DNA of 64,000 bases from Pseudotabrizicola algicola (GTDB lineage Bacteria > Pseudomonadota > Alphaproteobacteria > Rhodobacterales > Rhodobacteraceae). The translations under genes and the position numbers were made by a program. Below are positions 37,293 to 42,434 of this stretch, piece by piece. The notes beneath the pieces were generated by a model that saw only the letters and a list, made by a program, of their open reading frames with translations, did not search any database and was not told the DNA's origin. The DNA lies in NCBI RefSeq assembly GCF_010915705.1, contig NZ_JAAIKE010000001.1, forward strand, positions 1,054,001 through 1,118,000, written 5' to 3'. Every line of letters starts with the position of its first letter. Positions within the stretch are counted from its first letter, which is position 1.

Positions 37293-37373
37293 GCGGCTCC
37301 CTTTGCCCAGAACATAGGGCGGCGCGGCGGGAAACCCAAGAGCAGATGCCACGCGCATATGACGGAGAAGACG

Positions 37374-39503
37374 ATGACCGACGCTTTGAAAACATGGGCC
37401 GCCCTCGCCACCAAGGAGCTCAAGGGCAAGGACCCCGAAAGCCTGATCTGGCACACCCTCGAAGGCATCCCCGTCAAGCCGCTCTACACCGCCGCCGATA
37501 CGGCCGACCTGCCGCATATGGGCGGGGTGCCGGGGGCAGCCCCCTTCACCCGCGGGGTCAAGGCCACGATGTATGCGGGCCGCCCCTGGACGATCCGGCA
37601 ATATGCGGGGTTCTCCACCGCAGAGGAATCCAACGCCTTTTACCGCAAGGCGCTGGCCGCAGGGCAACAGGGCGTCTCGGTCGCCTTCGACCTTGCCACC
37701 CACCGCGGCTACGATTCCGACCATCCCCGCGTGGTGGGCGATGTGGGCAAGGCGGGCGTTGCCATCGACTCGGTCGAAGACATGAAAATCCTGTTCGACG
37801 GCATCCCGCTGGAAAAAGTCAGCGTTTCCATGACCATGAACGGCGCGGTCATCCCGATCCTCGCCAATTTCATCGTCACCGGCGAAGAACAGGGCGTCGA
37901 CCGCAGCCTGCTGTCTGGCACCATTCAGAATGACATTCTGAAGGAATTCATGGTCCGCAACACCTATGTCTACCCGCCCGAACCGTCGATGCGGATCATT
38001 GCGGACATCATCGAATACACGTCCGAACATATGCCGAAGTTCAACTCGATCTCGATTTCCGGCTATCACATGCAGGAAGCCGGGGCCAATCTGGTGCAGG
38101 AACTGGCCTTCACCCTCGCCGACGGGCGCGAATATGTGCGCACCGCGATTGCGCGCGGCATGGATGTCGATGCCTTCGCGGGCCGCCTGTCGTTCTTCTT
38201 CGCCATCGGCATGAACTTCTTCATGGAGGCCGCCAAACTGCGCGCCGCGCGCCTCTTGTGGCACCGCATCATGTCGGAATTCGAGCCGAAGAAGGAAGGC
38301 TCGCTGATGCTGCGCACCCATTGCCAGACCTCGGGCGTGTCCTTGCAAGAGGCCGATCCCTACAACAATGTGATCCGCACCGCCTATGAGGCAATGTCTG
38401 CGGTGCTGGGTGGCACGCAAAGCCTGCACACCAACGCGCTGGACGAGGCCATCGCCCTGCCGACCGAGTTTTCCGCCCGCATCGCCCGCAACACCCAGTT
38501 GATCCTGCAGGAAGAAACCGGGATCACCCATGTCGTCGATCCGCTGGCGGGCAGCTATTACGTCGAGACCCTCACGCATCAGCTGGCCGAAGAGGCGTGG
38601 AAGCTGATCGAGGAAGTCGAGGCGATGGGCGGCATGACCAAGGCCGTCGCCAGCGGCATGCCCAAGCTGCGCATCGAGGAATCCGCCGCCCGCCGTCAGG
38701 CCGCGATTGACCGGGGCGAAGATGTGATCGTCGGGGTCAACAAATACCGCAAGGCCAAGGAAGACCCGATCGACATTCTCGATATCGACAACGTCGCCGT
38801 CCGCGACAGCCAGATCGCCCGCCTGCAGGCCACCCGCGCCAGCCGCGACGAGACCGCCTGCCTCGCCGCGCTTGCCGAACTGACCCGCCGCGCCGCCGAA
38901 GGAGGCAACCTGCTCGATGCCGCCGTGTCAGCCGCCCGCGCCCGTGCCACCGTAGGAGAGATTTCCGACGCCATGGAAAAAGTGTTTGGCCGCCACCGCG
39001 CCGAGGTGAAAACCCTCGCCGGAGTTTACGGTGCCGCCTATGAGGGCGACGCCGGATTTGCGGCCATTCAGGCCGATGTCGAGGCTTTTGCCGCCGAGGA
39101 AGGCCGCCGCCCGCGTATGCTGGTGGTCAAGATGGGGCAAGACGGGCATGACCGCGGCGCCAAGGTCATCGCCACCGCCTTCGCCGATATCGGCTTCGAT
39201 GTGGATGTGGGCCCCCTGTTCCAGACACCGGAAGAGGCGGCGCAGGATGCCATCGACAATGACGTGCATGTCATCGGCATCTCGTCCCAAGCGGCAGGCC
39301 ACAAGACGCTCGCCCCGAAACTGGTGCAGGCACTTCAGGCGGCTGGCGCGGGCGATATTCTGGTCATCTGTGGCGGCGTCATCCCGCAGCAGGATTACCA
39401 GTTCCTCTATGACAGCGGGGTAAAGGCCATCTTCGGCCCCGGCACCAATATCCCCGGCGCCGCCAAGGATATCCTGACGCTCATCCGTCAGGCGCGCGGC
39501 TGA
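37374..39503 (+). CDS. scpA: Methylmalonyl-CoA mutase
   Basis: 709-residue adenosylcobalamin-dependent mutase converting (R)-methylmalonyl-CoA to succinyl-CoA. The substrate barrel ([55 protein letters not shown]) is followed by a C-terminal B12-binding domain with [20 protein letters not shown], whose histidine ligates cobalt, and [13 protein letters not shown]. It is a single-chain (homodimer-type) enzyme. ATG 37374 has GGAG at good spacing; an ATG five codons earlier is possible. With pccAB it completes propionyl-CoA assimilation; the epimerase and MeaB chaperone genes are not in this window. Confidence 0.97.
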
Positions 39504-39555: not shown

Positions 39556-41274
39556 TCAGCCCCCGCCCGCCATCGCCATCAGGATCAGCAGCGGCGCAAG
39601 ACCCATCAGGAACCCGCCGCCGCCCCCGCCGCCGTCTCCGTCCCCCTCATCGGCAGGGCTGTTGCTTTCGTCGGGCGTGTCCTCCTCGGGGATGGGTTCG
39701 GCGACCGGATCAAACAGATCACCCTCATCTTCGATCGCAGGATCGGGCGCTTCGGCAAAATCCTCGCCCGGCACCACGCCGCGGATCACCACCTGCATGA
39801 TCTCGCCGGGGGAGAGATCGGCGGTCAGCACCCCGTCGCGGTAAACCGTATCGGTCTCCCGCGTCTCGACCTGCGCCCGCGAGGATGTGCTGCCCCTCGG
39901 CTGGCCATCGGCCACGCCCAGAACCGTGACCTCCATGCATTCAAAGCCGCTGATGACGCCCGAGATATCCACCTGCGTCGTGCTGGCCTGCTCGGCGGTC
40001 GAGACGATGTAGAACACCGCATCCCCCCCGCCCGAGAACATGTGGACATCCGCCGTGTCCGTCACAAGCTCGGTTTCCGGACCGCCCTGCGGCGTCAGAT
40101 CGATCATCGATTTGCCGATCAGGTTCTTCGAGATCATCGAGAACATCTCGCCCGCAGGGGTCGGCTCGGAAAACACGGCCCCGCGTGACAGCGCATTGGC
40201 GCTGTTCTGGATCAGCGGCCAGACATGCGCCTGACTGACCCCCTGCGCCATGAATGTCTCGACCAGATCGAGCATCTCGCGCGCCTGGTTCAGGCCGAAG
40301 TCGATGTCCTTTTCCGGCCCCTTCGCCGCCTTGAGGTTCCATTCGGTCACATGCACCTCGAGATCGCGCATCCCTTCATGCGACATCCACACGCGCGAGA
40401 TGGTGTTCAGATCATACTGGCGGCTGCTTTCGTTGCCGCGGCTGTAGACATGGGCAATCACCCCGTCTATCGCCTCGCGGCTTTCCTCGCTGTCAAACCC
40501 CATGATGACCAGTTCATTGTTCACCTCGGTCCAGTTGACATCCCCGTTGGCGCGGATGTTGCTCAGGGCGATCCGCGCATCGGGATAGCGCTCGTTCAGA
40601 TCGGCGATCACATCGGGCGAACTCCAGCCCGCATACTGCGCGGAAAGGTTCGAGGTGCCATAGTTATGGCCCATCTGCACCAGCACCTTCATCGCATCGG
40701 TATCGACCGCATAATCCTCGGCAACCTGCTTGAGCTCGTCATCGATGATGACCGCCATCTCCGACGCCAGACGCCCGTATTCCACGGCATTCATCTCGCC
40801 CGAGCCCCAGTATTCGTTGCCGATTTCGAAGCCCGCGATCTTGGCATCGCCGTAAACGCCGGACGCCACATCATTGATGAAACCGCGCAGCGCCGTTTCA
40901 TCCACGGCAGGCAGGCGGTTGCCATAGCGGTCGGTGGCATCGCCCAGCATGAACCGCGTCGGGATCACGATGGTCACCGGATGGCCATGCACCTCGGCAA
41001 AGGACATGAAATGCGAAATCGGAATGAACGGCACAACCTCGCCGGTCGCGGCATGCTGCGCCTCCGAGGCATCCGGGTTCTCGATGTCGAAGTAATCCTC
41101 TGTCAGCGTCCCGCCCGGATAGCGCAGACCCGTCACCCCCAGCGAGTTGATCGCCTGCGCATAAGACCCGTCTCCGGTCATCGGCCCGCGATTGGCCAGA
41201 ACATTCCCGCCGAAAATCGCACTTGTCGCAAGATGGCCGAATGCCTCTGCATTGCTTGGTAAAACTGTCGGCAC
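39556..41274 (-). CDS. Clan GH-A-like glycoside hydrolase with C-terminal hydrophobic tail
   Basis: About 572 residues from the preferred GTG start. A TIM-barrel hydrolase is suggested by LRYPGGTLTEDYF near 50, FEIGNEYWGSG with candidate acid/base Glu 154, and EVHVTEWNL with candidate nucleophile Glu 311; this spacing resembles GH39/GH51-type enzymes. A beta-rich domain follows (about 395-500), then an Asp/Glu/Pro-rich linker (505-545), a run of glycines and a hydrophobic tail FLMGLAPLLILMAMAGGG. There is no N-terminal signal peptide. The open frame continues 80 Arg-rich codons upstream that do not look coding. The polysaccharide substrate is unknown; it may be exported by type I secretion and held at the surface. 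Confidence 0.7.
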   Translation of the reverse strand: MPTVLPSNAEAFGHLATSAIFGGNVLANRGPMTGDGSYAQAINSLGVTGLRYPGGTLTEDYFDIENPDASEAQHAATGEVVPFIPISHFMSFAEVHGHPVTIVIPTRFMLGDATDRYGNRLPAVDETALRGFINDVASGVYGDAKIAGFEIGNEYWGSGEMNAVEYGRLASEMAVIIDDELKQVAEDYAVDTDAMKVLVQMGHNYGTSNLSAQYAGWSSPDVIADLNERYPDARIALSNIRANGDVNWTEVNNELVIMGFDSEESREAIDGVIAHVYSRGNESSRQYDLNTISRVWMSHEGMRDLEVHVTEWNLKAAKGPEKDIDFGLNQAREMLDLVETFMAQGVSQAHVWPLIQNSANALSRGAVFSEPTPAGEMFSMISKNLIGKSMIDLTPQGGPETELVTDTADVHMFSGGGDAVFYIVSTAEQASTTQVDISGVISGFECMEVTVLGVADGQPRGSTSSRAQVETRETDTVYRDGVLTADLSPGEIMQVVIRGVVPGEDFAEAPDPAIEDEGDLFDPVAEPIPEEDTPDESNSPADEGDGDGGGGGGGFLMGLAPLLILMAMAGGG

Positions 41275-41723
41275 TGTATCAATCTCCCCACACCCAAGAG
41301 ATCCGACCGTCCGACACCGCCCCCAAATCCGCCCTGCTCGACCAAAATCCGCCTGACGCGCGCCATAGCGCCGGAAGGCTCTTTTCGGTCTGTTCCGTGG
41401 CCTTCGCCTGTGAGTGCGCGGGGGCCAGCGGACGGGTCTGAAAACCGGATCGAACGTTCTGTTCTCGGGGAAATCGATGCAATCGCCGTGCCGATGGGCC
41501 GCGCGAAAGGGCACGCGGCGGCCTTACTGGCGTGAGGATGGGGCCAATCCCGACATTGGTCGGGTTGCTTGGCAAATGGTGGCAAGAACGCGGGCCAAAT
41601 GGACCGTCACCCGCCGCACCTCGGGCGCGGCGGGGTCAAGTCAGGCAAGAACTGCTTGGAATGGCAGGCGCGCCGCAGCCCCTCGCCGCCACGGCAGCGG
41701 GGCGCATCGCCTTGTCCGGGGCC
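41275..41723. other. 449-base region without a convincing gene
   Basis: Between the glycoside hydrolase and phoU. Short open frames on both strands are Arg/Pro-rich and lack ribosome binding sites and family motifs. No tRNA or clear terminator is visible. It probably contains the hydrolase promoter and the end of the pst-phoU transcript. In many relatives phoB follows phoU; nothing like a response-regulator start is present here. Confidence 0.5.
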
Positions 41724-42434
41724 TCAGGCCCCGGTTTCAAACGCGGTGGTATCGCCCTTGGGCCGCTGATCTGCCGGCAAGGCTCCGGTGACCAGATAGA
41801 TCACCTGCTCGGCAATGCCGGTGGCATGGTCGCCCACCCGCTCGATGTTCTTGGCGATGAAATGCAGATGCATGCAGCCGGTAATGGTGCGCGGGTCCTC
41901 CAGCATATGCGTCAGAATCTCGCGGAACAGCGCGCTGTAGATCTGGTCGATCTCGCTGTCGCGCGCGCGCACGCTGGCGGCCAGATCGGCATCGCGCTTG
42001 ATATAGGCATCCAGCGCCGCATGCAGTTGCTGCTGCACCGCCCCCGCCATGCGCAACACCGACGCCGACAGCCCCCCGATCGGCGCGCTCTGGTTCAGCA
42101 CCGTGGTGCGCTTGCCAAGGTTCTTGGCATAATCGCCGCAGCGCTCCAGATTGCTTGCCACCTTCATCACGCTCAGCACCGTGCGCAGGTCGCCCGCATT
42201 GGGCTGGCGCAGGGCAATCAGCCGCGCGCAGTCGGCGTTGATCTGTTCTTCCAGAGCGTCGATCGCCGCGTCCTCGCGCCGGACGCTGTTGGCCAAGGCG
42301 TCATCACGGCCATGCAGCGCCTGCGCCGCCTTTCCGATTGCCTCTTCAACCAGCGCCCCCATCCTGACGACCAGCGCCTGCACGCTGTGAAGGTCGCGGT
42401 CAAAGGCGCGAAGGATATGCGGATCAGTTTGCAT
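41724..42434 (-). CDS. phoU: Phosphate signalling protein PhoU
   Basis: 236 residues forming two tandem PhoU helical repeats: LVVRMGALVEEAIGKAAQAL and NLERCGDYAKNLGKR in the first, HFIAKNIERVGDHATGIAEQV in the second, with the conserved E/R-GD metal-binding motifs. PhoU links Pst transport to the PhoR-PhoB system, keeping the regulon off when phosphate is plentiful. It is the last gene of pstSCAB-phoU, 14 bases after pstB. Confidence 0.95.
   Translation of the reverse strand: MQTDPHILRAFDRDLHSVQALVVRMGALVEEAIGKAAQALHGRDDALANSVRREDAAIDALEEQINADCARLIALRQPNAGDLRTVLSVMKVASNLERCGDYAKNLGKRTTVLNQSAPIGGLSASVLRMAGAVQQQLHAALDAYIKRDADLAASVRARDSEIDQIYSALFREILTHMLEDPRTITGCMHLHFIAKNIERVGDHATGIAEQVIYLVTGALPADQRPKGDTTAFETGA

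Follow-up and report, generated by a model that had tools for sequence, protein, structure and literature searches.

A conserved hydrophobic tail exchanged with RTX C-termini in a GH51-like enzyme family of Rhodobacteraceae-type bacteria may mark an undescribed route to the cell surface

The window analysed here is a stretch of 64,000 nucleotides from Pseudotabrizicola algicola (contig NZ_JAAIKE010000001.1, positions 1,054,001 to 1,118,000); all coordinates are positions within it. On its minus strand lies a gene for a protein of 572 residues, the parts of which are listed in Table 1. The frame stays open upstream as far as 41514; the start region conserved in relatives agrees with the GTG codon chosen. 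The neighbours, both named by eye, are a methylmalonyl-CoA-mutase-like gene (37359-39503, plus strand) and a phoU-pst-like cluster beginning at 41724 on the minus strand. We found no paralogue of the enzyme in its own genome. A first-pass annotation, made from the sequence, had reported the frame and its coordinates, the motifs GNEYWG and VTEWN, the acidic linker, the glycine run and the uncharged hydrophobic end; all of these proved to be as it described. It had also noted the lack of an N-terminal signal, and we agree, as reading by eye of the enzyme's N-terminus and of those of its relatives revealed no K/R-plus-hydrophobic signal.

Table 1. Features of the gene and its product, in window coordinates
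Feature	Position	Strand	Basis or remark
Coding sequence	39556..41274	-	GTG at 41274, stop 39556-39558, 572 aa; start region kept in relatives
GGGGAG, ribosome-binding-site-like	41284..41289	-	9 nt upstream of GTG, by eye
Catalytic core, residues 1-502, (beta/alpha)8-type barrel plus beta-sandwich, GH51-like	39769..41274	-	AlphaFold2 model, fold searches, profile
Glu154 of GNEYWG, candidate acid/base	40813..40815	-	Invariant in 21-row alignment; aligns with 1pz3 E175
Glu311 of VTEWN, candidate nucleophile	40342..40344	-	Invariant in 21-row alignment; weakly aligns with 1pz3 E294
Acidic linker, residues 503-547, K/R-free	39634..39768	-	Sequence; pLDDT mostly <50
Seven-Gly run, residues 548-554	39613..39633	-	Sequence
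Uncharged hydrophobic end FLMGLAPLLILMAMAGGG, residues 555-572	39559..39612	-	Sequence

No Pfam or NCBIfam family matched the full protein at an E-value of 1, and scans of the 21 members of the family alignment returned no glycoside hydrolase model. The AlphaFold2 model built from this alignment has a mean pLDDT of 86.3; the core is confidently predicted, while residues from ∼511 onwards mostly fall below 50, the disordered part comprising the linker and the greater part of the tail. With this model as a query, the best solved matches in Foldseek were GH51 arabinofuranosidases (E-value 4.9e-18). VIA-align also placed GH51 first (Z 22.5, rmsd 3.7 over 395 residues), with GH79 chains next (Z 21.4); as the two Z-scores are so near, fold alone leaves the family unsettled, and the clan is firmer than the family. 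When PDB sequences were searched with a profile, 13 matches were obtained at E-value 1 or lower; the top ten were GH51-type arabinofuranosidases (best E-value 1.3e-7), which speaks for GH51.

The two candidate catalytic glutamates, expected on strands 4 and 7 of the barrel, were compared with E175 and E294 of the GH51 enzyme 1pz3, which we take to be its catalytic residues. E154 was aligned with E175 in a significant profile segment; E311 was aligned with E294, but in a segment scoring only 0.3 bits. The protein resembles the GH51 alpha-L-arabinofuranosidases, such as 1pz3, in fold, in the profile match and in sharing RYPGG and GNE motifs; it differs from them in its low identity (∼15%), in the missing Pfam match and in the added acidic linker and tail. 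Membership of the core in clan GH-A, proposed in the first-pass annotation, is thus supported by the fold searches and by the PDB profile match; that annotation held that no family could be named by eye, and profile and fold now name GH51 as the nearest one. The enzyme family, for which Pfam has no model, may in our view form a new branch close to GH51.

Scanning 84,980 genomes by pattern, we obtained 119 relatives; the best 80 of the 119 were taken on, and by our reading these all belong to Rhodobacteraceae-type organisms. Matches to the enzyme were present in 28 of 198 genomes sampled from the bacterial family. The tail was found across many genera, in 56 (53 of them different) of 110 enzyme-family frames. 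Its layout is an acidic linker, a DDGG-like patch and a GLxxLLGLLPLLALxG-like stretch, the protein ending no more than ∼13 residues past the Pro-Leu core. Among the 53 tails the uncharged end has a median length of 19 residues and only one tail (L034) has K/R within its last 20 residues; the proline, invariant in 30 aligned tails, lies within the last 14 residues in 51 of the 53. L034 ends in Arg, as does L134, which is outside the set of 53; as a tail L034 is doubtful (tail-profile E-value 0.057). A composition test, defined after tails had been seen, was passed by 49 of the 56 tail rows, by none of the 54 other homologues and by none of 1584 non-homologous closed ORFs (≥150 aa) from the 110 loci.

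One could suppose that such a tail is a functionless, low-complexity remnant left by decayed RTX ends. Its composition is indeed biased, its linker varies in length and a close relative, L005, has a degenerate end that is Gly-rich, charged and not hydrophobic and may be a tail that is decaying or has been reshaped. Still, enzymes less than 50% identical share the LLPLL core, its spacing from the C-terminus and the lack of K/R, and we consider a remnant very improbable.

Relatives without the tail mostly end in RTX calcium-binding repeats; in five of eight proteins scanned (L003, L059, L062, L063 and L065) Pfam PF00353 was detected. Four members of the family end in a CFI-box-type domain: L067 (NF041770, E-value 3.3e-16) and, by eye, L052, L065 and L072. 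CFI-box-CTERM (NF041770) is a further exchangeable C-terminus of this enzyme family, with a sequence that is unrelated to the tail, basic and not hydrophobic-ended. L065, L067 and L072 carry RTX repeats besides the CFI-box end.

We built a tree from the 110 rows, from which three identical copies were dropped and the truncated L058 was omitted. The 106 rows left comprised 53 with the tail, 37 with RTX, six with an N-terminal cap (described below), four with a CFI-box, three with both N-cap and RTX, and three unlabelled (L005, L076 and L095). On this tree, a quick search without bootstrap that describes presence and absence in one gene family, the tail label requires six changes, five of them forced by starred branches; shuffled labels average 34.9. 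The clade of 62 rows that holds our gene contains 53 tails, seven RTX ends, one CFI-box assigned by eye and one unlabelled row. Absence of the tail from close relatives, which the first-pass annotation had named among the findings that would count against its proposal, is thus not what we observe. Exchange of the two ends is seen between sisters joined at a support of 100, L019 (tail) and L023 (RTX), and likewise between L034, with its doubtful tail, and L051 (RTX). No tail-like stretch was found between core and repeats in the RTX relatives of this clade, except in L010, where a hydrophobic stretch (mean hydropathy 2.16) is situated between the core and the RTX repeats; tail and RTX may therefore not be strict alternatives. 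Judged from the sequences and their tree, the tail is a conserved module standing in for a C-terminal RTX domain.

Does the tail occur on other proteins? Looking for it elsewhere in the genome had been proposed in the first-pass annotation; a profile built from 30 tails, this gene's own among them, recovered this gene alone (E-value 7.5e-7). In 394 genomes of the bacterial family the same profile gave 24 matches in 22 genomes: 14 members of the enzyme family (L134 included), one distant member (L122, assigned by a profile E-value of 2e-25), one esterase (L119) and eight non-tails. In L122 (G104), a very distant tail-bearing member, GSEFYG replaces GNEYWG, and the part corresponding to VTEWN was left unaligned, in a gap. 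A class-wide search of 289 genomes returned this gene as the only tail; two further frames were rejected as not being tails.

In the esterase L119 a SASA carbohydrate-esterase domain (Pfam, 3.7e-10) takes up the very start of the protein, there is no signal peptide, and the end is formed by the tail. Its 20 other matches in the 394 genomes include 18 with RTX ends, the remaining two being a contig fragment (L153) and a protein with the domain at its C-terminal end (L154). Exchange of tail and RTX is thus indicated in two unrelated enzymes, the second case resting on one protein, the single instance of the tail on an unrelated domain in 394 genomes.

The eight matches rejected as tails (L124-L131) were internal, N-terminal or in the wrong frame. 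In two of them, L124 (a frame of 312 aa) and L127 (299 aa), an internal DDGGG-plus-LLLGLLG stretch, at about residues 211 and 198, respectively, precedes a Cys-rich end by ∼100 residues. L125 (G028 contig 85), a frame of 362 residues, has a hydrophobic and then acidic N-terminal stretch, with an RTX-type end like that of L208 (see below).

A unit of similar make-up was observed at the other end of proteins. Six family members with neither tail nor RTX (L070, L071, L077, L078, L081 and L103) have at the N-terminus a short K/R-free hydrophobic run, for example MGIAILLLLPLLLLMF, to which GSDD and an acidic linker are joined, and three others (L074, L075 and L080) combine a similar N-terminal cap with RTX. 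In the genome of P. algicola three of the 12 RTX frames examined (13 were found) begin with such a cap, e.g. MEFLLLLPLLLVGGLVVGGSGGGDD and MELFLLLPALLLAGLFTGGGSDSADD; the hydrophobic run is K/R-free or nearly so and an acidic stretch comes next. These capped RTX proteins lie outside the window, at L204 (C12:365000-374000) and L208 (C23:322000-328000), and two of the three are adjacent.

With a cap profile made from twelve such starts, its seeds being RTX and enzyme-family proteins, we searched 295 genomes and obtained 46 matches, spread over 38 of them. Examination of 30 loci yielded 12 caps, on 11 RTX proteins and one family member; one of them, L217, qualifies only when translation is taken to begin at an internal start. 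The other 18 loci were rejected as lipoprotein or Sec signals or as noise. Two further matches were proteins of our own genome already among the RTX frames examined. Frames of ∼80-100 aa with a terminal hydrophobic run, followed in most by an acidic stretch, were seen at L214, L216 (G050 contig 37, 78278-79162), L219 and L223; at L216 there are three such small frames in a row. We infer that the C-terminal tail and the N-terminal cap share one job. What the two have in common is a short sequence of biased composition, and this likeness may be convergent rather than a mark of common origin.

In having a Gly patch ahead of a hydrophobic stretch at its C-terminus, the protein recalls the GlyGly-CTERM/rhombosortase system. 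By definition, GlyGly-CTERM combines a signal peptide with a hydrophobic stretch that has at least one basic residue after it, and sorting tags of this sort are usually many-to-one (PMC3237569). The tail enzyme has no signal peptide (by eye) and no basic end, and rhombosortase (TIGR03902) was above cut-off in none of 15 tail-bearing genomes, weaker and generic matches being present in 14 of these 15 and in 14 of 14 controls. On these three grounds GlyGly-CTERM was rejected, as the first-pass annotation had anticipated in finding the tail unlike that tag. PEP-CTERM was rejected too: exosortase (TIGR02602) has no match in our own genome and exceeds the cut-off in only three of the 15.

The same observations bear on the more general idea of a sorting tag cut by some unnamed membrane protease or transpeptidase after an equally unnamed export step, in the manner of GlyGly-CTERM or PEP-CTERM. 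The motif-plus-hydrophobic layout, with the Gly patch preceding the hydrophobic run, is what one would expect of such a tag; the absence of a basic end in 52 of 53 tails, the lack of a signal peptide, the scarcity of the two processing enzymes and the usual single tail per genome, contrary to the many-to-one habit, all speak against it. We consider this idea quite improbable.

RTX repeats serve proteins that type I systems export without a Sec signal. As the tail replaces RTX on enzymes that have no Sec signal, it most likely marks exported proteins. The composition of the cores is in line with this: those of tail members have a median pI of 4.05, the program's floor, and 0.25 Cys per 500 aa, and those of RTX members have 4.18 and 0.54, respectively. 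For 43 genes chosen from the window, this gene among them with too long a start (pI 4.54), the medians are 6.10 and 4.17, with one of the 43 at pI 4.4 or lower; the enzyme's own core has a pI of 4.38 and one Cys. These acidic, Cys-poor, RTX-like cores weakly back export. The enzyme is thus similar to RTX type I proteins in having no Sec signal (by eye) and an acidic, Cys-poor core, in having RTX proteins as its closest relatives and in being encoded by a genome that has a type I exporter. The exporter is a PrtD-type ABC transporter, scoring above cut-off (625.5 bits), whose gene adjoins a partner-like frame and a 1412-residue RTX frame.

It differs from RTX type I proteins in lacking RTX repeats (no Pfam match) and the C-terminal [FLI][VAI], which is reported as the signature of RTX type I substrates (PMC8861453). 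This ending was found in none of the 53 tails and in eight of 32 RTX-containing relatives; of the 32, three end in a CFI-box. It bears on a reading in which the tail acts solely as a signal for type I secretion, of a kind other than RTX, and is used by a dedicated or general exporter, with the enzyme released and not anchored. Replacement of RTX C-termini in two unrelated enzymes would suit such a signal, and so would the NCBI name 'type I secretion protein' given, on a basis that we have not seen, to two plasmid-borne relatives, one of which (H1) was read and has the tail; another relative, H2, which NCBI names 'hypothetical protein', also proved to have it. Apart from the missing end signature, this reading has to face the similar N-terminal unit that coexists with intact RTX C-termini, where an extra export signal would be superfluous, and it appears improbable to us.

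We looked for dedicated machinery beside the tail genes. In 45 loci, with flanks of more than 6 kb in total, no linked exporter, sortase or protease recurred, and clusters of recurrent neighbours were confined to related genera, together with antisense artefacts. An apparent ABC-transporter cluster at nine tail loci was rejected, being a true repeat only in L004, L012 and L016 and otherwise made of weak or unlisted cross-matches. Nor did an exporter, sortase or protease recur beside the N-capped RTX genes, whose shared neighbours reflect synteny. The linked rhombosortase or type I exporter that the first-pass annotation had suggested searching for was accordingly not found. Its broader suggestion was that the enzyme might be anchored at the surface, or secreted by a type I system, in a manner not yet described. 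The repeated swap with RTX C-termini speaks for it, and the missing RTX end signature and the lack of a linked exporter or sortase speak against it.

The main rival is a plain tail anchor, in which the end of the protein inserts post-translationally into the inner membrane with the N-terminus inside, so that the enzyme works at the cytoplasmic face, for instance on a lipid-linked or imported sugar. A protein without signal peptide, with a C-terminal hydrophobic stretch of the length given above and with no linked export machinery would fit this description, and several GH51 enzymes in our fold and profile lists are named intracellular. Such an anchor does not readily account for the repeated swap of the tail with domains that serve exported proteins, for cores as acidic and Cys-poor as those of RTX members, or for a hydrophobic-plus-acidic unit on RTX proteins themselves; on balance we find it unlikely, more worthy of attention though it is than the other alternatives.

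Export routes recognise one end of a protein. Since the unit occurs at either terminus, a physical tether fits better than an end-specific signal. LapA-type RTX adhesins, which are exported and held at the surface by one end through an N-terminal retention module, offer a likeness in idea only, the unit here being a short hydrophobic cap or tail. We therefore prefer, as plausible while stopping short of calling it probable, the reading in which the unit, placed at one end of a protein or the other, tethers it to the envelope independently of Sec, probably after type I export. A more specific form, which we put forward tentatively, is that a K/R-free Leu/Pro/Gly core with an acidic Gly-rich spacer makes up an undescribed Rhodobacteraceae module that tethers type I secreted proteins to the cell surface, and that this module takes two forms, a tail that supplants RTX at the C-terminus of enzymes and a cap at the N-terminus of RTX proteins. 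Such a tail was not described in the literature that we searched, which included few subscription journals.

In the tether reading, the protein would be a GH51-type retaining enzyme of clan GH-A that acts on some polysaccharide or glycoconjugate. Made without a Sec signal, it would leave the cytoplasm, the likeliest exit being a type I secretion system. The tail would then hold it at the cell envelope, a flexible acidic Gly-rich spacer being followed by a short uncharged Leu/Pro/Gly anchor. It would do so in place of a C-terminal RTX domain, with a closely similar cap set at the N-terminus of RTX proteins.

The conserved, RTX-exchanged tail may thus represent an undescribed route of sending enzymes to the cell surface or tethering them there. 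If this is true, a bacterial family of marine and soil habitats would retain exported enzymes on the cell with no need of a signal peptide or a sortase-type tag, and surface enzymes would become predictable where present tools say cytoplasm. The tail would also provide a short tag for enzyme display, and it would raise the question of how one hydrophobic unit can serve either end of a type I substrate.
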